From Bolinopsis microptera (Eukaryota > Ctenophora > Tentaculata > Lobata > Bolinopsidae): a stretch of DNA of 64,000 nucleotides. The translations under genes and the position numbers were made by a program. Positions 917-63,950 of this stretch are shown one piece after another. The notes beneath the pieces were generated by a model, which did not search any database, was not told the origin of the DNA, and worked only from the letters and a program-made list of their open reading frames with translations. Numbering within the stretch: the stretch's first letter is position 1; each line of letters opens with the position of its first letter. Location of the stretch: the NCBI RefSeq assembly GCF_026151205.1, contig NC_087082.1:10922901-10986900 (forward strand). The letters run 5' to 3'.

Positions 917-3900
917 ATGTTGGTTCAGTTTGCTATTTCTTTGATTGGTATTTGCCTGTTCACGAATCCCGTGATAAGGGCTAACCCAGTGGGGGCTAGC
1001 CAAGTGGGCTGCAGCCATGATGGACGTGCTTACAATGTTGGCGAAACCATTGTTATTGATTGCGACAACTGTGTTTGTGAACCAGGTTAATTGAGAATTG
1101 TAAAAATAAAATAATTATTTTTGGGTTGTATTTGAAAAAGGTTAACGGGTGATACTCGTAAAATATTTGTTCCATATATTACCGTCGACGAGTCCAACTT
1201 GGCGCGCGTCCTGGTAGGTTATAAATCTACAAGAAAAAGGCTATTATATATGAAAAATTACTAAATTAACAAGCCCGATATATAAAGCTAGCACTAGACG
1301 GCTATATGCAGTTTAATTCCACTTATTGATTTGGCTCCGTTGTTTGGTCCCCTGTTCCACAGCTGAGTAAACTGTAAGCTAGGAACCGACCGGTCTAGGG
1401 TTTTGGCTACCGGGCTGGAAATGGCCGGATATCAATCTATTTTTCAGTTTGCCGGATTTTTCCGGACCGGAACCGGGTGTGTAGAAGAAGAAATTAATTA
1501 ACCGCTTTTTAACCTCTATCATTTAACCAATTATTTATTTAATTTGGGTATATTTATAACATGACATGGTCCCGCAGCTGCTATTAGTATTTTACCCCGA
1601 AATCCAAACCTAAGGACCCAGCATGTTAATCGAACCGAAATAAAATGTCCAATTGTTATAAAAGCTATCCAAAATGTTTTAAGATTTCGACCTTGATTAA
1701 ATGTCAAAGAATTTAACATATTCCATAAAAGTTTTGAAACCTTCGATCTCAACTTTAAGCGACGATCCTTGTGTCGTCACTTCTAGTATAATTGCGTGTC
1801 GTATCGTACTCGATGCAAGCCAAAGAGCTTTAATACTTTGGTTTTGGCATCTAAAGTTAAGCTTACTGGCCTTTTTGCCTGACAGAAATTTACAAACTTT
1901 CCAAAATTACTCCATGGATAAAGTGTACATTTGATTGGAAGTCTAAAAACACTCAAACCATACAAATTTTGGGCTTCTCACGAGTAAAGTTTCCAAGGTA
2001 TAATACCAAACACATGGACATGTCTTCAAAGGATTTTCAGAACTGAGCAATCAGGAAGAATCAGAAATCAGTAGGAGAAAGAAGTTATCGAGAGAGAAGC
2101 AGGAGAGTTGAAGAGAGTTTAAGAACTGAGAAACCAGACAGAATTGAAAGTCGGCAGGGGAGAGAAGTTATCGAGAGAGGAGCAGAACAGAGTTAGAACA
2201 GAAAGAAAGGTGAGATTCAGTCTAGCATAAATAAGGCTGTGGACTGTGGAGGATATAGATGGTTTAGAGGCAGGTGACCCTAAGATTTCCGAGCTGGAGG
2301 ATGAATTAAGGAATTTCCGTTCAGCTGGTCCACATCTGCCAGGTGCCAGGCCTCCAAAACCGTCTTACTTTGAAACTGGGTAGAGTTTCATCAGATTTGT
2401 CAGGCGATTTAAGCATTTTATTCTGTGCGGGCATAGAGAAGGATCTGATGTTAGCAGTTACTGTTAGCACATATAATATGTTAGTATGTTGTCTTACATT
2501 CGTTGCGAATCTACCTGGGATAGGCTGCAGAAAATCTCTCTCAGGCCGGACGAGAGATGTAATTTTGATTTTCTATCACAGAGGAGATATTTCCTGCTAC
2601 TCAATGATGGGCCTTTTGAACTGAGCTCATGTCATTGTGTCAGTTAGCTGGTGAGCAACAGTTCACTGCACGTAATACGTATAGAGGAGCTTGATTCAAA
2701 GGCTGTATACGACTCCGAGTGTGAGAGAGACAGTAGTTGTTTGCAGGTTCTTATTGTAGGAGCATGTGACGTGGCTGTAAGGAGCAAATTATATGAAACG
2801 GGTGACCGACAACTGAACCCAATTGAACCTAGTTCCCACGCAGTTAACAGGCACCCAATCAGCTTAATTGGGTGACCAGTCAGCTTAAATCCCAAAACGA
2901 CAACTGAACCCAGGTCAGTGGATCGTATCCTTTTTGGCACGCTTCGTGAACAGGTTAGCTTGTTAGATCAGATCTCGCGATCGAAAGGCACCTGAGACTT
3001 TGTCATCTATTAGTACGCTTGTTATACAGATCGGATCAAAACATAAGGAATAGAGATGGTGGTCACAGTATCAAATCATGATAAAGGTGAATACTGATTG
3101 TATCACGTTAGCTGACAGTGGTGAATCAGGTAGTTTCACTCACGCCCAGGATACGATTTTTGCTGTAAATAACTCTGAACTTGTTGACCAGCGAGTTAGA
3201 ATTATACAGCAGCATAGCAAACACGTGACCATGCGATGACGAGCACAAGGCAGGCAAATTACCGTCCTGACTATCCTCCTTCCAACGCACAGGCCGTCCA
3301 TGGACCCCAAATCTGGTTATCAATCGTTTTAGGAGTGGTATGAGAAATATTAGGGGTCGTTCACATATTATAACGTACCTTAAGAACGACAAATTTAGTC
3401 ACAATTTTAACTAAGATTTTTGTAAACCAAATTTATTGTGACTAAATTTTTCGGCATAAATAGAGCATATATTGATTTACGTACTTTAGTTCGACACGCA
3501 CTATAGTTCGACAATTTAAGTTCGCCAGATATCACCCCTGTCGAACTTCGGTACGTGTCGAACTAGAGTCCAGGTAGCGTACTCTAGTTCGACAAATAAT
3601 TTCTGCTTGTTATCCAACGGTTATCGCCGGGTCCTCATCATAGGATCACAGGGTTCAATGGCAGATTAAAAATTTGCTGACATCTTGCAACCAGCCGTTA
3701 GAAATTCCGGAACCTTTCAGTATCTTACAGGAAAATAGATTGATATCCGACTGTTTCCGGTTCAGCAGCCAAATCTCTAGACCGGTACTCGGTTACTAGT
3801 CGTTTGTGATAATGTAAAGTGTGGTATGTGGTAGATATTTATATAGCGTACTCTTAGAGTACGCTTTATAAATATCTCGTACTCTGTTTTATAGATCTAG

Positions 3901-11111: not shown

Positions 11112-13961
11112 ATGCAATCAAACCCTGCTATCAAAGGTAAGACTATATAAAGTAACAAAAGTAAACATATATTGATATATGAAAAGGTAACAACCTTTTC
11201 AAAATTTGAATTTTGAAATTTGAGAGATGTTTGGGTTAAGTTTCAAAATTAAGAGGCTCGATTTTGGTTGGTGTCTATGTTAATTGTTAGGGTTAGGGTA
11301 TATGGTTTTGTTTGGTTTTTTTAAGAGTTATAGTAATATGTAAAATGTAGTAAAATGTAGTAAAATGTAGTAAAATGTAGTAAAATGTAGTAAAATGTAG
11401 TAAAATGTAGTAAAATGTAGTAAAATGTAGTAAAATGTAGTAAAATGTAGTAAAATGTAGTAAAATGTAGTAAAATGTAGTAAAATGTAGTAAAATGTAG
11501 TAAAATGTAGTAAAATGTAGTTATTGAGGAGTCCTAACTCTCCTCACGTCCTTAAATGGAGTTTTCTTTCTACCATATATAAGGAAATAGACCCTATATC
11601 TTTATTTTAACTCTTGCCAAATTCCAAACAAAATCCTATACCCTACAACATAGGGTATGAGAGTAGCGGGTAAATTTTGGGGTTTTACGTAAAAACCACC
11701 AACAAAATATTTTAAGTCAGTCGCGTGATGGTGATCGTATAGTGATTAATTTCATTCCAACATTCCAACATTATACGTTCGGAACATATGGTCAATTTTT
11801 CTAAAATATGCTATTCATTTTATTTAAACGTGTTATAAGTTATAACAGTATTAAAGTATGTGCACGTACGATCAAGTCTCTCAAACGAATGTATTGTAAT
11901 GTAACACAAATCATTCTATCCTGGTTGGCCGTTTAGTTGCAGGATTCTTCTATATCTTAATTTTTTAATCTAATTTTTAATTATAAATATTGATTTTGGT
12001 TTTTTTTAAATCATTTATATCATGTGTCCTCATTTGAAAACGCTTAGGTATTAGCTTGTAATCACTCACTTTTTGGCTATCCTATTGGCTCATTTATTCT
12101 AACCTCCCCTACATGAGTACAATAACTCCATAGATTAGGCTTGGTGCATATATAGAACTTATATTCGATATCTGGTAATCGCACTATATAGTTTTGTCAC
12201 TATATAGTGCGGGAATCTCGATATCTACCTTCCAGTCAGTATACAGATATATAACAATGCGTGTAGAATCATTTAATTGTTGCAGCATTTCCTACCACAT
12301 GTGTCTCAAAACACAAAATGTTCGAGAGCACCATTTCTATTGTGTATACGAACAAATATAATGAAGATCATTGCGTATCCTACCAAAAGATCAAATAGCA
12401 TTTAAGATTTTGGTAATGCTATATTTGTTACTTTGTACATCTAGGAAGGTTCCAAGCCATAACCATTCGTAAAGTGTTTTGGCGCGGCCCATTTTGAAAT
12501 TTGAACCATTAAAGACTGCGAGATCGTATACTTTATAACCACTGTTAGTTGGCTCAGTTTAACGATTTCAGCTAGAACAAGGCTTGGATGCGACCATATT
12601 GACTTAACTTATGTACATATAGATCTATCTGTATAATATTCCCTATTTTTGTTAAAATATGAGTAACGACCATGCCTGCAGGTATCGAGGTGCCGATGTT
12701 CGATCTCCACCACCACACCAACCCACCCGACTCCTCAACCATAGCTCCCCTCCACCCCTACATCCCTGCTGTGGACTACTTCCTCAGCGGCATCTGCTTC
12801 CTATGTGTCCTACTGGGACTCCCAGCCAACATATCCACCCTCATCTACTTTATCCGACAGAAGAAGGACCTCCCCACCAGACTCTACCTCGTTCTATCCC
12901 TGGTGGATATCCTAACCTGCTTCACTCTCATCCCCACAGGCATCAGCTTCGCAATGGACCGGGAACCAGCTCTCTTCGGTAACGACCTCTTCTGTCAGCT
13001 GTGGGGCATAGTATGGGTCATAGTTCCCTTCCTGTCAGTGTACCTGGTCTGTGTGTTGAGCATCTCCAGGACCATAACCCTCCTCAACCCTCTGGGAGTG
13101 GTCAGTAAGGACGCAGTCACGTGGTCAATTGGTCTCTACACCTGTTATCTGTTCCTGAGGATAATGGTCCCGATAGTGAACGACAGTGCCCATTTCATCT
13201 ACTCTAAGTCTGATGTTTACTGCTGGGAAGGAAGTCAGGCTAATTGGTATATGTACTATGATCTGGCTACAGGTATTTTAGCTTTTATTAATTTTTCTCG
13301 TAGCTACCAGCTATGAATTAAATCGTTTTAATCAATTTATATTAATGGCTTTTCGATTTCTTTTTCAAAACGCACAATTTAATAAATATATATTGTATTA
13401 CGATGAAGCTTTAAAGCTTTTAACGACGAAATATGACAATATAGATCTATTTCAGGAGTACTACAGCTGGCAGCCCCTATCCTGCCCATTTGTATAAGCT
13501 GCATCCTCTCATCAGTCTCCATCGCACGATCCATCAAACTAACCCACAACAACAGATCCGTCAACAACCTCAAGTTGGAAGCGACCATCACAATCCTGCT
13601 GGTAACAGCCGTCTACATCGCCTGTAACATCCCCGTGTTTGTGTTCTGGACTATCTACATAGCGGACGGGTTCACCGTTCCTAGAGACAGTCAGTTTCTG
13701 TACTGGCACAGTTGGGGGCTCTCCTACGTGGTGTTGGTGGGGTGCAATGCTGCTCTCAACCCAATCGTCATGATGTGCAGGATGAGGAGACTGAGGCAGT
13801 GTTTCAAGGGTCGGCGAGGGGGAGCTATGAGACTCAGACCCTTGAGATCCAAGAGCACGTCGTGTCGTGATCCTTATATTATCCCTGCTGGTCAGGGTGC
13901 AACATGTCAGGTCTATCAGTTATCCCCTGATTCTCACCCCAGTTCCTCAGATCTTGTATAA
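11112..13961 (+). CDS. rhodopsin-like (class A) GPCR 1
   Basis: The main coding exons are 12682-13272 and 13456-13961, joined in phase. I add a small first exon (11112-11136, MQSNPAIK) because CAAAG|GTAAGA and CCTGCAG|GTATCG join in phase, giving 373 residues. The alternative start is ATG 12672, giving 368. Seven hydrophobic segments are visible: FLSGICFLCVLLGLPAN (TM1), LYLVLSLVDILTCF (TM2), WGIVWVIVPFLSVYLVCVL (TM3), WSIGLYTCYLFL (TM4), LQLAAPILPICISCIL (TM5), ITILLVTAVYIACNIPVF (TM6), and a TM7 with ALNPIVMM where NPxxY is expected. The TM3 DRY position reads SRT. Cysteines for the TM3-ECL2 disulfide are present (FCQLW, VYCWEG). The tail has basic residues and Cys after TM7. The ligand is unknown. 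Confidence 0.85.
11341..11520. repeat. 10-bp minisatellite (TAAAATGTAG)x18
   Basis: Eighteen identical copies of TAAAATGTAG with no variant. It lies in the proposed first intron of GPCR 1. Perfect identity implies recent expansion or active homogenisation. Confidence 0.97.
12178..12212. repeat. 12-bp-arm hairpin
   Basis: CGCACTATATAG and its exact complement CTATATAGTGCG are separated by TTTTGTCA. The hairpin lies in the proposed intron 1 of GPCR 1. Its function is unknown. Confidence 0.8.
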
Positions 13962-15286: not shown

Positions 15287-15422
15287 CTCAACATTATCAC
15301 GGCTTAAAGTTAACCAACTTTGCCATGTATTTGTAAAGCAAACTTGCCCCGGTGCTCAACATTATCACGGCTTAAAGTTAACCAACTTTGCCATGTATTT
15401 GTAAAGCACACTTGCTCCGGTG
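15287..15422. repeat. 68-bp tandem duplication over a gene end
   Basis: 15287-15354 and 15355-15422 are near-identical copies, each beginning CTCAACATTATCACGG. The second copy carries the last codons and stop of the minus-strand gene. The first lies in its 3' flank and repeats those codons with a few substitutions. Confidence 0.95.
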
Positions 15423-17203
15423 CTAACCTTGGTTATCTCCTCGGTTGAAATATTGTCCAACACCTTGGACCCAATCTCCAGCTGGTACTCAGTCAGTGGC
15501 GCTCCCTTAAGGTTGACAAGCCTGGTAACCGGACTGGCGGGTCCTCGTTTAGCTAACAGGATACAGATTTGACTCCAACCCTCCATGTCCTCTTCCTTCT
15601 CTCCTAAAATAAGGAGGATACCTTTGGTGACCTCGTATACCGCGGGAGGAGGAGTTGTGAAGCTCCGCACTTCGGAAACCGCCGTTTTCAGACCAAGGAT
15701 CAGTTTGTTACTTTTTGCAGGTTTCATTTTGGCTATCCTTTGTTGCATGTAAATCCTCTCCGTAGCGATCTGCCATTTTTCTCTTGGTGGCCTGTTTTTC
15801 ATGCTTCGTGTCGGGAAATTGATAGGCTTTGTGGGGCTTTTCAGGATGGGATGGGATTTTGCGGAGGGTCTGACGGATGAAGAAGAAGACAGTCTACCTG
15901 ATTGAGCTCTTTTGGCAGTGTGAAGGTTCATGCCCCGACTCTTAGTTTTCACCATCTTACGCTTCTCAGGAACAGGTTTACTCGTCACTTTACCCTTGGC
16001 TTTGTTAGCGTTTGTTTCTTTTGGGGGTGATGCTTTCTTAGGTGGTGATGTTTTCTTAGGTGATGTTTTCTTTTTAGGAGGTGTTGTTTTCTGAGGGGGC
16101 GTTACTTCACGTTGAGGCGGCGAAGGTTTTGGGGTAACAATAGGAACTGGGTCAATGAGGTCGATAGTGCTAGGACCACAAGCAGTATCTATACAAACAG
16201 GGGGAGGTGGAGGAGGAGGAGAAGGAGTTGGGGTCTTCATCTGGGTACCCGTACTAGACCTCTGCTTCACCTCCCTCAGTACCGCTGTCTCCTCTCTGAA
16301 GTCAGGGTCGTCATCAGTTTGAGTTCCAGCCTCTGCATAACATACCTTGACAGTCAACATAAACGCTTCACATTGCGTCCCAGCATGATCTGTAGCCGTG
16401 CTCACTCGAGGCTCTGGCTCTGTCTCAGTTTCAACTGATACACTATGTAGATCAGTCTCTGTCTCCACGGAGACACTTGCCCTACTTGGAGCAGGCATCG
16501 CTGGTACCTCCACAGAAACACTCTGTCTAGTACTTGGCTTAACTGGGGTTGTGCAAACAGGCTCCTTCGACTCCAGTGATATGGTGGAGGTGTTGTCTTC
16601 AGGGATCTCGTCTTCGAGTTCTCTGTCGTCAAGATGTGACGGCAACTCAACATCACCCTCATCATCAGTCTTGGAGGCGGGGGTAAACGTTACTGATCTC
16701 CTGTTTTGAGGCACCATCTCAAAGTTATCGTTCGCGAAGGTCACACCGTAGTACCCGTTAGGCTTGTCAAACCGTCTGACATGCCCAGCTGTTTTGGCTC
16801 TCGTGAGACTTTTTCTCTGGTTCTGAGTGTCCCCGATATGCTGCACAGAACTGGGCCGGGATGAGCTGTAAGCGTAGAACCGCACTGCTGAGGCAGACTT
16901 CACTCTCTTCTGCTTTGCAAACTTATCCGGAGTTGATCTGGATTCTGGTTTTAGTATTGGGGTGACAGGTATGTTGACAAGAGATGAGATATCTGGCACA
17001 GGTTCTATATTCTCAGTCCCATCTGCTTCCTCCTCGTCCTCTTTCTCCCCCGTACCCTTCTCCAGGTCAACAGCTTCAAGAGGGGCTGATATCCAGCAAC
17101 AACCTGGCTTCATTCTGAGGAGCTCCATCACCAGTGTAAACACACATAGAGCTATCACCACTGCAGTGATTATCGCTATCACCTTCATCTCGTAGGTGTC
17201 CAT
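15365..17203 (-). CDS. single-pass membrane protein with dynein-stalk-like C-terminus
   Basis: One uninterrupted exon of 612 codons. I start at the ATG at 17203 because the codon two before it is GTG. Residues about 7-29 (VIAIITAVVIALCVFTLVME) form one membrane segment, followed by CC and an acidic stretch. Residues about 60-500 look disordered: repeated SVSVETETE text, a run of seven prolines, and Lys/Pro repeats (TSPPKKASPPK). The last 110 residues are compact: EVRSFTTPPPAVYEVTKGIL, then LILG, a single W, RLVNLKGAPLT and STGASVLYKYMAKL. This order (E-x-x-S-x-x-x-P-P-x-x-V, hydrophobic helix, W, then S-x-x-A-x-x-L) is the pattern around the microtubule-binding domain of axonemal dynein heavy chains, as I know the family. 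No AAA+ or motor region is present. I infer a membrane-anchored protein that might bind microtubules. Confidence 0.75.
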   Translation of the reverse strand: MDTYEMKVIAIITAVVIALCVFTLVMELLRMKPGCCWISAPLEAVDLEKGTGEKEDEEEADGTENIEPVPDISSLVNIPVTPILKPESRSTPDKFAKQKRVKSASAVRFYAYSSSRPSSVQHIGDTQNQRKSLTRAKTAGHVRRFDKPNGYYGVTFANDNFEMVPQNRRSVTFTPASKTDDEGDVELPSHLDDRELEDEIPEDNTSTISLESKEPVCTTPVKPSTRQSVSVEVPAMPAPSRASVSVETETDLHSVSVETETEPEPRVSTATDHAGTQCEAFMLTVKVCYAEAGTQTDDDPDFREETAVLREVKQRSSTGTQMKTPTPSPPPPPPPVCIDTACGPSTIDLIDPVPIVTPKPSPPQREVTPPQKTTPPKKKTSPKKTSPPKKASPPKETNANKAKGKVTSKPVPEKRKMVKTKSRGMNLHTAKRAQSGRLSSSSSVRPSAKSHPILKSPTKPINFPTRSMKNRPPREKWQIATERIYMQQRIAKMKPAKSNKLILGLKTAVSEVRSFTTPPPAVYEVTKGILLILGEKEEDMEGWSQICILLAKRGPASPVTRLVNLKGAPLTEYQLEIGSKVLDNISTEEITKVSTGASVLYKYMAKLVNFKP

Positions 17204-60350: not shown

Positions 60351-60677
60351 CAAGTTTTAATGATTATTAATGAAATTATGGGATATTTATAATTCAATAT
60401 GTATTGATTCTTCTGTGGAAAATAAAAATTGTATTTTACTTAAAATTGTATTTTACTTATATTATATATAATATTTACTGTACTGGTTTTCACTGTTCCA
60501 AATGAACTGTATTGTGGGTCTTAGTACAATCTATAACGTTTTGATCAATTTACTTCTAAAATTAATTGAATCTGATATGAGCCGTTTGGTTTTATACAGC
60601 ACTACTTGTATTGAGACCTTTGTTCTATTCAAATTCAAATAACTTATTCTTCAGGTTTCATTATAAAGAGTGCAGTT

Positions 60678-63600
60678 ATGACATCACCAAAGAAAGCTCC
60701 TGATCCAACGTATTTGCTTCGTGTTTTGTCTATAATCAATAAAATGAGGAATCACAAACAGCGAGCAAGTATTGAGCGAATTGTTTACTACATGGGACTA
60801 TACTATGGGTTGTCAGAGTCTGATGTTACAAAGGAACTTAATCTTGCTGTCAATCATGGAGTAATTAAAAAGTTTATAGGCATAGGAGGTAAAGAGTCTT
60901 ACAGGGATTCAAAATATCCTAATCAGATCCCATCTAGAACATTTGTGAGAAAACCTAGTGCAGATCTGAGGATGTTGGTTGCTGCTGCCATTGAAACCAT
61001 CGGCAGCCCATCTGGTTCCAAGATTTCAGCCATAGAAGAACATATAAGGTCAAATCATGCTCTGGACTTATCTCTGGCAAACTTAACAGCTCAGTTAAGA
61101 CTAGCTGTTGCTCATGGTGTTCAAGAAAGCTTGTTCATAAAAAGTGGCGCATATATAAACATTGATGTTCAGCGACTAGAGGAGCTGAGACAGAAGGACA
61201 ATCAATCATATTTTGCTGAGGGTGTAGAGCCCTCACCTGTTTGTGGATTTTGCCTGGGAACAACTGAATCTAATAAGGAAAAACACCCAGAGCAATTACT
61301 AAGCTGTGTTGATTGTGGGAACAGTGGCCATCCTTCATGCTTAAAATTTTCAGAGGAACTCACACGTCAATGTATGTCTGATCCTTGGCAGTGTATCGAA
61401 TGCAAAGTTTGTTCTTTTTGTCAACATTCAGGAGATGCAGATAACTTATTATTTTGTGACTCTTGTGACAAAGGTTTTCATATGGATTGCTTGCAGCCAC
61501 CTATGAGTGAGATGCCAACTGGATTTTGGATGTGCTGTTTGTGCAATAAGGCCACAGATTCTCATGGGAAGTCTATTAGAAAACGCAAGAAGACCATGGC
61601 CCCTTTAGCAGCTAAAGAAAAGGTTGTTCCTTTGGCTGCTAAAGAAAAGGTTGTTCCTTTGGCTGCTAAAGAAAAGGCTGTTCCTTTGGCTGCTAAAGAA
61701 AAGTTTGTTCCTTTGACTGCTAAAGAAAAAGTGAAGTCCAAATCTGACAAAGTAGTCCTAGAAGAAACTCCAACTGGAAAGAAAAAGAAATGTCCAAAAT
61801 TTACTCCACGAAAAGAAGAGGAATATGCAGCATCTGACCCGATGTCAGATGTTAAGCTCATTCAAGGTATCATGAAGGCAGAGGAAAAGAAAAAGAAAGT
61901 GAAACACAAACGCAACAAAGTTCTAAATGACAAAAATGAACCAGAGGCCACAATAATCGAGGAAGATGTTCCAAAAAACCAGCAGAAGAAGAGGGAGACA
62001 GAAGTGAGTGAGTTGGACAAGAAAACATTCGGTGAGATTATCCAGAAATGCAATAAAGCTTTGAAAATATCTCCTGTCGAAACTGCTGGTCAGCGATCAC
62101 CACAATTCATTGATTTTGGAGAATATGAAATTGAGACATGGTATAGTTCACCTCTTCCTTTTGAATACTCCAAGCTGTCAAAACTTTATTTCTGTGAATA
62201 TTGCCTAAAATACATGAAGAGCAAGGAGGCCACTCTTCGGCACCAATCAAAATGCTTTCTGCGGCAGCCTCCTGCTAATGAAATCTACCGTCATGAAAAC
62301 ATTTCTCTGTTTGAAGTTGACGGGGCTAAAAACAAACTTTACTGCCGTAACTTATGCTTACTGGCAAAGATGTTTCTGGATCACAAAACTTTATATTACG
62401 ATGTGGAACCATTCTTATTCTATGTTTTGACACTGAATGATGATTATGGATCACATTTAGTGGGATACTTTTCGAAAGAGAAGAATTGTGTTAGAAATTA
62501 CAATTTGTCATGCATCATGACATTACCACATACTCAGCGTCAGGGGTATGGAAAACTTCTGATTGACTTCAGTTATGTTCTGTCAAAACTAGAAGGGAAA
62601 CCTGGAACACCTGAAAAACCTTTATCAGATTTGGGCTTGATAAGCTATCGCTCATACTGGCGATGCAAAGTTTTGACGTACATCAAGCCACATATCAACG
62701 ACAATGTTATAATCACAGATATTTCGAAATCAACTGGTATCTTGTTTGAGGATCTCGTATTAGCTCTTCATGATCTCGAAATTTTGGACTATGATGACAA
62801 AAGCAACGACTTCTGCATCGAAGTTGATGGGCAATTGCTTAAAAAACAGATTGATCGTGCATCAAATTCAAAACGTCATGTTATCAATGAAGATGCGCTG
62901 ATCTGGTCTCCAATGGTCAGTCCAACATTTGGTATATCATCACAGCGTAGGAAGAAGAGCACAGAAAGCTCTATGACTTCTCCTCGAAGAGGAGGAATGT
63001 TACTTTCTCCAATGAAAGTCGTTAAAAATGTTGACAAGATTGATCCTCTGTCTGAAGTAATCAAAGTGGAACCTCGTCCCATTGATACTTTCACTAAATA
63101 TTACCCAAACTGGATTCCCTCTGGAGAAGATGCGGATGAATATCGTTACGCTGGAGAGGAAATGAAAGGTGAAATAGAATCTTTTGTCATGAAGAAAACG
63201 CCAGGGAGGAAAAAGAGGGTTAAGTTTGCTGTTATTTATAACCCAAAATCTGGAAAGAGGGTAACAAAAGCCATACCTCAGAAAAAGAAAACCCCAGAAC
63301 GTCAAACTCCGAGACGAAGCTCTTCTAGAAGGCTGCACGATCAGACCAGGACTGAAACAGTTGAACAGCCCAAAATCTTAGAGGAATGTTTAGAGGTTGA
63401 AAATTCCGAAAGCCCTGCAATTTCTTACAATGAAGTATCGTCTTCTTCAGACATCAAAGAGGTCGCATCAGAAGTGAAACCATCCGTTGATTCAGACTGT
63501 GAGGTTCCACATTCAACTACAGAGGATACTATGCCATCTGAAGATCTAGAATCGACTCCTCCAGATACTGTAATAACTCCAAGCGAAACAGCAGACACCT

Positions 63601-63950
63601 CAAGTACTTCATCAGACAGCGGAACAAAAAGTCCTGAGTCTGTATCTTCCGAGGTAAAGAAGCGGCTGTATTCCAGTGAGAGTGAGTCCAACTATTTTCC
63701 TCCGAACAAAAAAACCAAACTTGAGACCGCCTTTGTTTATACAGATAGTGATAGTGATGACGAAAATGACAAGCAACCAGTTGAAGAGCAGTTTGAAGAG
63801 TGGGAGGAAGATGTGACAAGTCTGTGTGGCGAGACAGAGGAAGAGGAGTCATCTTCCCTCTTTCTCAACACCTTTAGCAACATCTATGTGAAATCACCTG
63901 ACTGTTTAAAACCCTCTGATTCTGCTGTACTGTCTTCGAAAGACTCGTGA
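60678..63950 (+). CDS. KAT6 (MOZ/MORF-type) MYST histone acetyltransferase
   Basis: An uninterrupted 1090-codon frame. Residues 1-165 are two winged-helix/H15-like units (LLRVLSIINKMRNHKQRASI; LRMLVAAAIETIGSPSGSKI). A double PHD finger covers about 188-290 (CGFCLGT..CVDCGNSGHPSC, then CSFCQHSG..CDSCDKGFHMDC). Residues 308-349 are five 9-residue repeats (AAKEKVVPL). The MYST domain spans about 470-730: C2HC finger (FCEYCLKYM, H522, C526), DHKTLYYDVEPF with the autoacetylated Lys, SCIMTLP with the active-site Cys, QRQGYGKLLIDF (acetyl-CoA loop), and EKPLSDLG with the catalytic Glu. The rest is basic, then Ser/acidic (EEWEEDVTSL). KAT6 enzymes acetylate histone H3 in the nucleus with BRPF, ING5 and MEAF6. 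The protein is shorter than vertebrate KAT6A/B, and the long Ser/Met-rich end is not seen. The absence of introns is unusual. The gene symbol is by family; orthology to one vertebrate paralogue is not implied. Confidence 0.95.
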   Translation: MTSPKKAPDPTYLLRVLSIINKMRNHKQRASIERIVYYMGLYYGLSESDVTKELNLAVNHGVIKKFIGIGGKESYRDSKYPNQIPSRTFVRKPSADLRMLVAAAIETIGSPSGSKISAIEEHIRSNHALDLSLANLTAQLRLAVAHGVQESLFIKSGAYINIDVQRLEELRQKDNQSYFAEGVEPSPVCGFCLGTTESNKEKHPEQLLSCVDCGNSGHPSCLKFSEELTRQCMSDPWQCIECKVCSFCQHSGDADNLLFCDSCDKGFHMDCLQPPMSEMPTGFWMCCLCNKATDSHGKSIRKRKKTMAPLAAKEKVVPLAAKEKVVPLAAKEKAVPLAAKEKFVPLTAKEKVKSKSDKVVLEETPTGKKKKCPKFTPRKEEEYAASDPMSDVKLIQGIMKAEEKKKKVKHKRNKVLNDKNEPEATIIEEDVPKNQQKKRETEVSELDKKTFGEIIQKCNKALKISPVETAGQRSPQFIDFGEYEIETWYSSPLPFEYSKLSKLYFCEYCLKYMKSKEATLRHQSKCFLRQPPANEIYRHENISLFEVDGAKNKLYCRNLCLLAKMFLDHKTLYYDVEPFLFYVLTLNDDYGSHLVGYFSKEKNCVRNYNLSCIMTLPHTQRQGYGKLLIDFSYVLSKLEGKPGTPEKPLSDLGLISYRSYWRCKVLTYIKPHINDNVIITDISKSTGILFEDLVLALHDLEILDYDDKSNDFCIEVDGQLLKKQIDRASNSKRHVINEDALIWSPMVSPTFGISSQRRKKSTESSMTSPRRGGMLLSPMKVVKNVDKIDPLSEVIKVEPRPIDTFTKYYPNWIPSGEDADEYRYAGEEMKGEIESFVMKKTPGRKKRVKFAVIYNPKSGKRVTKAIPQKKKTPERQTPRRSSSRRLHDQTRTETVEQPKILEECLEVENSESPAISYNEVSSSSDIKEVASEVKPSVDSDCEVPHSTTEDTMPSEDLESTPPDTVITPSETADTSSTSSDSGTKSPESVSSEVKKRLYSSESESNYFPPNKKTKLETAFVYTDSDSDDENDKQPVEEQFEEWEEDVTSLCGETEEEESSSLFLNTFSNIYVKSPDCLKPSDSAVLSSKDS

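Follow-up and report, generated by a model that had tools for sequence, protein, structure and literature searches.

A motor-less, dynein-type microtubule-binding domain in a predicted single-pass membrane protein, one of a multigene family in the ctenophore Bolinopsis microptera

The microtubule-binding domain (MTBD) of a dynein heavy chain is the tip of the motor; according to PMC7042235, the stalk is its line of communication to the ATPase ring. Can such a domain be used by a protein that has no motor at all? This question is raised by a gene in a 64,000-nucleotide stretch of the Bolinopsis microptera genome (hereafter the window; NC_087082.1, positions 10,922,901 to 10,986,900), which encodes an intact frame of 612 amino acids plus a stop on the minus strand, with its ATG at 17203 and its stop at 15365-15367. 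A preliminary description made from the DNA letters had placed a frame here and read it as a captured dynein exon joined to a membrane anchor; its position and integrity were confirmed. We consider it probable that the product is a single-pass, motor-less membrane protein that tethers a membrane to microtubules through a dynein-type MTBD on a long flexible linker, as one member of a multigene family. To our knowledge, a dynein MTBD has not previously been described as a motor-less membrane-microtubule linker. No published description of motor-less membrane MTBD proteins was found in a full-text search of literature lacking most subscription papers, which gives weak evidence of absence.

Sequence comparison identifies the C-terminal ∼110 residues of the protein as homologous to the dynein heavy chain MTBD (Pfam PF12777 MT, distal part), with which they share a sequence profile, a predicted fold, an H1 motif with its PP and charge pattern, and a conserved Trp. 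A hidden Markov model (HMM) of the 11 dynein MTBDs from the same genome scored 32.4 bits on the C-terminal 131 residues, compared to 9.2 bits for the best of 5000 shuffles, which places the similarity above chance; on the whole open reading frame (ORF), the dynein MTBD HMM gave 27.8 bits at residues 506-610. When the query profile was built from the window domain and six relatives, with zero dyneins included, 57 of the 60 PDB sequences listed were dyneins (best expectation value [E], 1.2e-7), and the first non-dynein match appeared at E 0.49. Profile-profile comparison with the dynein MTBD reached E 8.7e-13. For an AlphaFold model built from the family alignment (mean confidence only 60), seven dynein stalk/MTBD entries were the top structural matches among the folds listed, with middling Z scores. 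The resemblance first noticed by eye was therefore borne out by both profile searches and predicted structure. The single Trp then reported is indeed the only one in the compact domain, although residues 476-612 contain two (1.5% of 137). Divergence is considerable: no Pfam family reaches its cut-off anywhere in the 612-residue ORF, and identity to the 11 dynein MTBDs of the genome is merely 14-23%, ruling out a recent dynein duplicate.

The remainder of a dynein heavy chain is missing, in agreement with the earlier reading. Whereas a dynein would run on into coiled-coil arm CC2, the window protein terminates 9 residues past the conserved aromatic column of helix H6, so CC2 is absent; the place of the long CC1 is occupied by a Pro/Lys-rich stretch (residues 345-480), and a short helix ahead of H1 remains in the AlphaFold model at low confidence. 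The antiparallel CC1/CC2 stalk was not found, as judged from the sequence end and composition with no coiled-coil predictor applied. No Pfam AAA or dynein family was detected in the ORF up to E 10, so the six-module AAA+ ring, linker and tail of dynein are likewise lacking. Nor is the gene a piece of a dynein locus: the closest dynein MTBD match on the chromosome (C11:10285160-10286197) lies ∼650 kb away. Dynein heavy chain genes of this genome (L001-L011) include several with very long open frames of up to 3703 codons.

At the other end of the protein, residues 8-26 form the sole hydrophobic segment (mean Kyte-Doolittle score, 3.04); beyond residue 40, no 19-residue stretch of the whole protein scores >1.3, so the one N-terminal membrane segment of the preliminary description stands with no second. 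Just seven residues precede this segment, and basic residues (Arg, Lys) follow it. By the positive-inside rule, these basic residues suggest that the C-terminal part is cytosolic, with the N-terminus outside. The Cys-Cys pair that follows is a possible acylation site. Between the membrane segment and the domain lie ∼440 residues (36-475) of predicted disordered linker, as judged by composition: 12.7% Pro, 10.9% Ser, 10.2% Thr, 8.9% Lys, and 0.2% Trp, with Glu also abundant, matching the Ser/Pro/Lys-rich linker described at the outset apart from the additional Thr. The linker is acidic over residues 30-330, where the net charge is -17 (isoelectric point [pI], 4.8), and becomes very basic ahead of the MTBD (residues 345-480; net charge, +27; pI, 11.6). 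Matches to the linker alone were seen elsewhere in the genome, at L022/L030 (C5:20368496; residues 362-429, E 0.0015) and, with E >3, at C9:715208 and C7:17178504.

Since an in-frame stop lies ∼48 bases 5′ of the ATG, the coding part of the gene can be a single exon, as had been claimed; nevertheless, AGs weakly resembling splice acceptors occur 23-79 bases before the ATG, so additional 5′ exons may exist. Little space would be left for them by a frame running on the plus strand from 18677, which resembles a G protein-coupled receptor (GPCR) by eye, although no Pfam family matched it. At the 3′ end, a 68-bp tandem duplication spans the last ∼18 codons and the stop of the frame, and its second copy falls 3′ of the stop (Table 1).

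These features suggest how the protein might work. The N-terminal segment would cross the membrane from outside to inside, leaving the domain to face the cytosol; the linker would act as a long flexible leash between membrane and MTBD; and the MTBD would dock onto the tubulin lattice in the manner of a dynein stalk tip. Because CC2 and the ring are absent, affinity for microtubules would be fixed rather than switched by ATP. The basic Pro/Lys-rich part of the linker may contribute nonspecific affinity for the acidic microtubule surface. A ciliary location for the protein is a guess.

The window gene is not alone. At least 11 loci carry the domain in the B. microptera genome, the one genome from which family members were collected: the window gene, a tandem array of four on contig C4 (L024, L025, L026, and L027), four on C1 (L028, L029, L032, and L035), L031 on C10, and L033 on C2. 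L028 scores 20.7 bits against Pfam MT, under the cut-off of 24. Most family members in this ctenophore appear to combine a membrane segment with the MTBD-like domain: the two share one open frame at 5 of the 11 loci (the window gene, L024, L026, L027, and L028), and at another 3 (L025, L031, and L032), a membrane segment is encoded 5′ of the domain, on the same strand but in a different frame or exon. For L029, L033, and L035, no membrane segment could be assigned in scans of ∼18 kb each; short hydrophobic frames occur nearby, such as L037 at 5254 (score, 3.07) and 31 residues on the minus strand of L033 (2.36), none of them linked to the gene. The frame stops shortly past the domain in 9 of 11 loci (L031 and the eight loci measured, whose stops follow the aromatic column by 8-15 residues); the last exon was not found for L032 and L035. 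Best-scoring GT/AG joins place an intron shortly 3′ of the PP motif in L029, L031, L032, and L035. In L035, two adjacent plus-strand frames (3253-3423 and 3581-3718) each hold an H1 part and could both be spliced to one next exon, possibly as alternative exons swapping the microtubule-contact helix.

Upstream of the domain, family members have either charged helical repeats (clearest in L024, L025, L029, and L032) or Ser/Pro-rich sequence (the window gene and L035). An 1881-codon frame in L025 (3723-9368, plus strand) consists mostly of KEAEEKRxEEERIAE-type charged repeats ahead of the MTBD-like domain and might form a very long single helix. Upstream of the L035 domain, at C1:12383500-12390325 (L037 4008-9001 and L035 611-1825, plus strand), Ser-rich frames contain a repeated module, S-G-L-S-x-Y-C-x-x-x-V-D-x-L-L-x-R-I-S-x-E-K, which we take to resemble the amphipathic helix of A-kinase anchors. 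On the same strand upstream of the L032 membrane segment, immunoglobulin-domain models matched 8 of the 10 frames tested (nine in L049, one in L032) at E ≤0.01, and 5 reached the Pfam cut-off. In the C4 genes, Cys-containing frames precede the membrane segment. We infer that these immunoglobulin-like and Cys-containing frames belong to the same transcripts as the domain.

In a tree of the 11 family domains and 11 dynein domains, in which the L032 and L035 rows are partial, 10 family rows clustered apart from the dyneins with support of 90/96, beneath the program's starred level. L033, whose branch is very long, was placed among the dyneins, and all 11 family rows were united in 35% of bootstrap trees. 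A simple, recent capture of a dynein exon, as originally envisaged, fits poorly with the low identity to dyneins, the number of loci, and this moderately supported separate grouping; any capture would be old, and the family has expanded. Several further candidates were dropped as members: L014 and L015, considered as orphan MTBDs, have weak PF12777 matches that sit among frames read as dynein exons, and L034 (C6:12511576) reached a best profile E of only 0.45. Weak PF12777 matches were also noted at C1:17744539, C1:12760958, and C1:12763446.

Does the window domain still bind tubulin? Residues of yeast dynein that contact tubulin are enumerated in PMC7042235, and the eight contact positions that we mapped agree with the letters of the yeast sequence in the PDB match. 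Helix H1 of the window domain retains equivalents of K3117 (a Lys five residues ahead of E511, before the motif EVRSFTTPPPAV), E3122, and R3124, and K3116 is replaced by Leu. Across the family, the position of R3124 is Arg or Lys in 11 of 11 loci, E3122 is Glu in 10, and K3117 is Lys or Arg in 7. In H3, R3152 is retained in none of the 11 loci and R3159 in one (as Lys), although 9 loci, the window gene included, have a Lys one position after the R3159 equivalent; these two positions vary in Dictyostelium too, according to PMC7042235. By hand alignment of H6, R3201 is replaced by Lys and K3204 by Thr in the window domain. H1 is thus preserved, and the remaining contact helices not clearly so.

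These substitutions bear on the rival explanation that survives best, namely, that the MTBD fold was kept while tubulin binding was lost, making the protein an adaptor for some other partner (such as a scaffold in cilia or at cell junctions) rather than a tether. The lost H3 contacts are in its favor, as are the length of the window domain's branch in the tree (1.79 changes per column), the acidity of three of the four C4 domains, and the missing CC2. However, H1 is a main contact helix and keeps its charge pattern (K-E-R in the window domain, with R3124 basic throughout the family), and a strongly basic linker precedes the domain. We regard the adaptor reading as unlikely, though worth weighing. 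That the gene is instead a functionless fragment of a dynein gene, left by retrocopy or exon capture, is very improbable. The domain and ORF do lie within one open frame, and the 3′ end carries the tandem duplication, as such an origin would allow; yet 612 codons are open, the layout is common to other loci, and the distance from the genome's dyneins makes the fragment too old for its frame to have stayed open by chance. Moreover, the ratio of nonsynonymous to synonymous substitution rates (dN/dS) of the domain is 0.18-0.43, and so <0.45, in all six pairs of C4 copies, a test of the C4 genes with the window gene outside it. A convergent helical bundle, whose PP-containing motif and helices mimic an MTBD by chance, would account for the sub-cut-off Pfam score, middling Z, and weak single-sequence scores, but it is scarcely credible given the shuffle control, the profile-profile match, and the lack of any non-dynein PDB match better than the one noted above.

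Table 1. Coordinates of features in the window and at the L032 locus
Feature	Position	Strand	Basis
Whole protein ORF	15365..17203	-	612 amino acids + stop
Membrane segment, residues 8-29	17117..17182	-	hydropathy
Cys-Cys pair, residues 35-36 (putative acylation site)	17096..17101	-	sequence
Acidic linker, residues ∼37-330	16214..17095	-	charge, pI; predicted disorder from composition
Basic Pro/Lys/Ser-rich linker, residues 345-480, contains PPKKKTSPKKTSPPKK	15764..16171	-	charge, pI
Dynein-type MTBD, residues ∼500-612	15368..15706	-	profile searches, shuffle control, predicted structure
H1 motif EVRSFTTPPPAV, residues 511-522	15638..15673	-	contact-residue mapping
68-bp tandem duplication, ORF 3′ end	15287..15422	-	97% identity
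Immunoglobulin-like exons near L032	L049 142-3741; L032 8503-8992	-	profile matches

Other genes were noticed during the analysis. Within the window, a 1110-amino-acid single frame at 60615-63944 (plus strand) encodes a single-exon, KAT6-like histone acetyltransferase, combining a SAMD1-type winged helix with linker-histone-like and PHD domains, a MYST zinc finger, and a MOZ/SAS acetyltransferase domain. Two rhodopsin-like GPCR frames (7tm_1) lie at 12663-13313 and 13437-13958 (plus strand), the first above the cut-off and the second below. Genome-wide, PF10613 gave 32 matches, reflecting many ionotropic glutamate receptor genes; several are single frames of at least 900 codons, and C3 and C12 hold clusters of them. 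One glutamate-receptor ligand domain (L048) scored highest against ML032222a of Mnemiopsis leidyi, without being identical to it (407 bits, compared to 243 for the next distinct receptor), and L046 showed the same preference (212 compared to 189), as would suit a lobate ctenophore.

Proteins that link membranes to microtubules are already known. As proposed for the window protein, CLIMP-63/CKAP4 spans the membrane once and binds microtubules through a part in the cytosol; the comparison is functional only. In CLIMP-63, that part is a disordered N-terminal segment, and the protein has a luminal coiled coil and no dynein domain. DNHD1 (dynein heavy chain domain-containing protein 1) is also dynein derived and outside the classic motor set, but it is very large, retains dynein heavy chain regions, and has no membrane segment. 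Ctenophores swim with plates in which a great many cilia are linked into a bundle. The compartmenting lamella is reported to join doublets 3 and 8 of adjacent comb-plate cilia (PMC9271582), and CTENO64 and CTENO189 are described as ctenophore-specific comb-plate proteins of this lamella (PMC11184263). We liken these two proteins to the window protein by setting, within the same animal group, and not by sequence. A more speculative proposal, which we think doubtful, is that ctenophore surface receptors or adhesion molecules ending in a motor-less dynein stalk tip couple the cell surface to microtubules, and that some of them form the doublet-to-membrane links of the compartmenting lamella, the window protein being a short member without an ectodomain.

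If the family is real, it would show that a dynein MTBD can act as a free-standing microtubule anchor without ring or stalk, and these genes would be a natural setting in which to see how the MTBD behaves when released from stalk control. Should ctenophores possess a direct membrane-to-doublet linker of this kind, the cohesion of comb-plate bundles would become testable through named genes.
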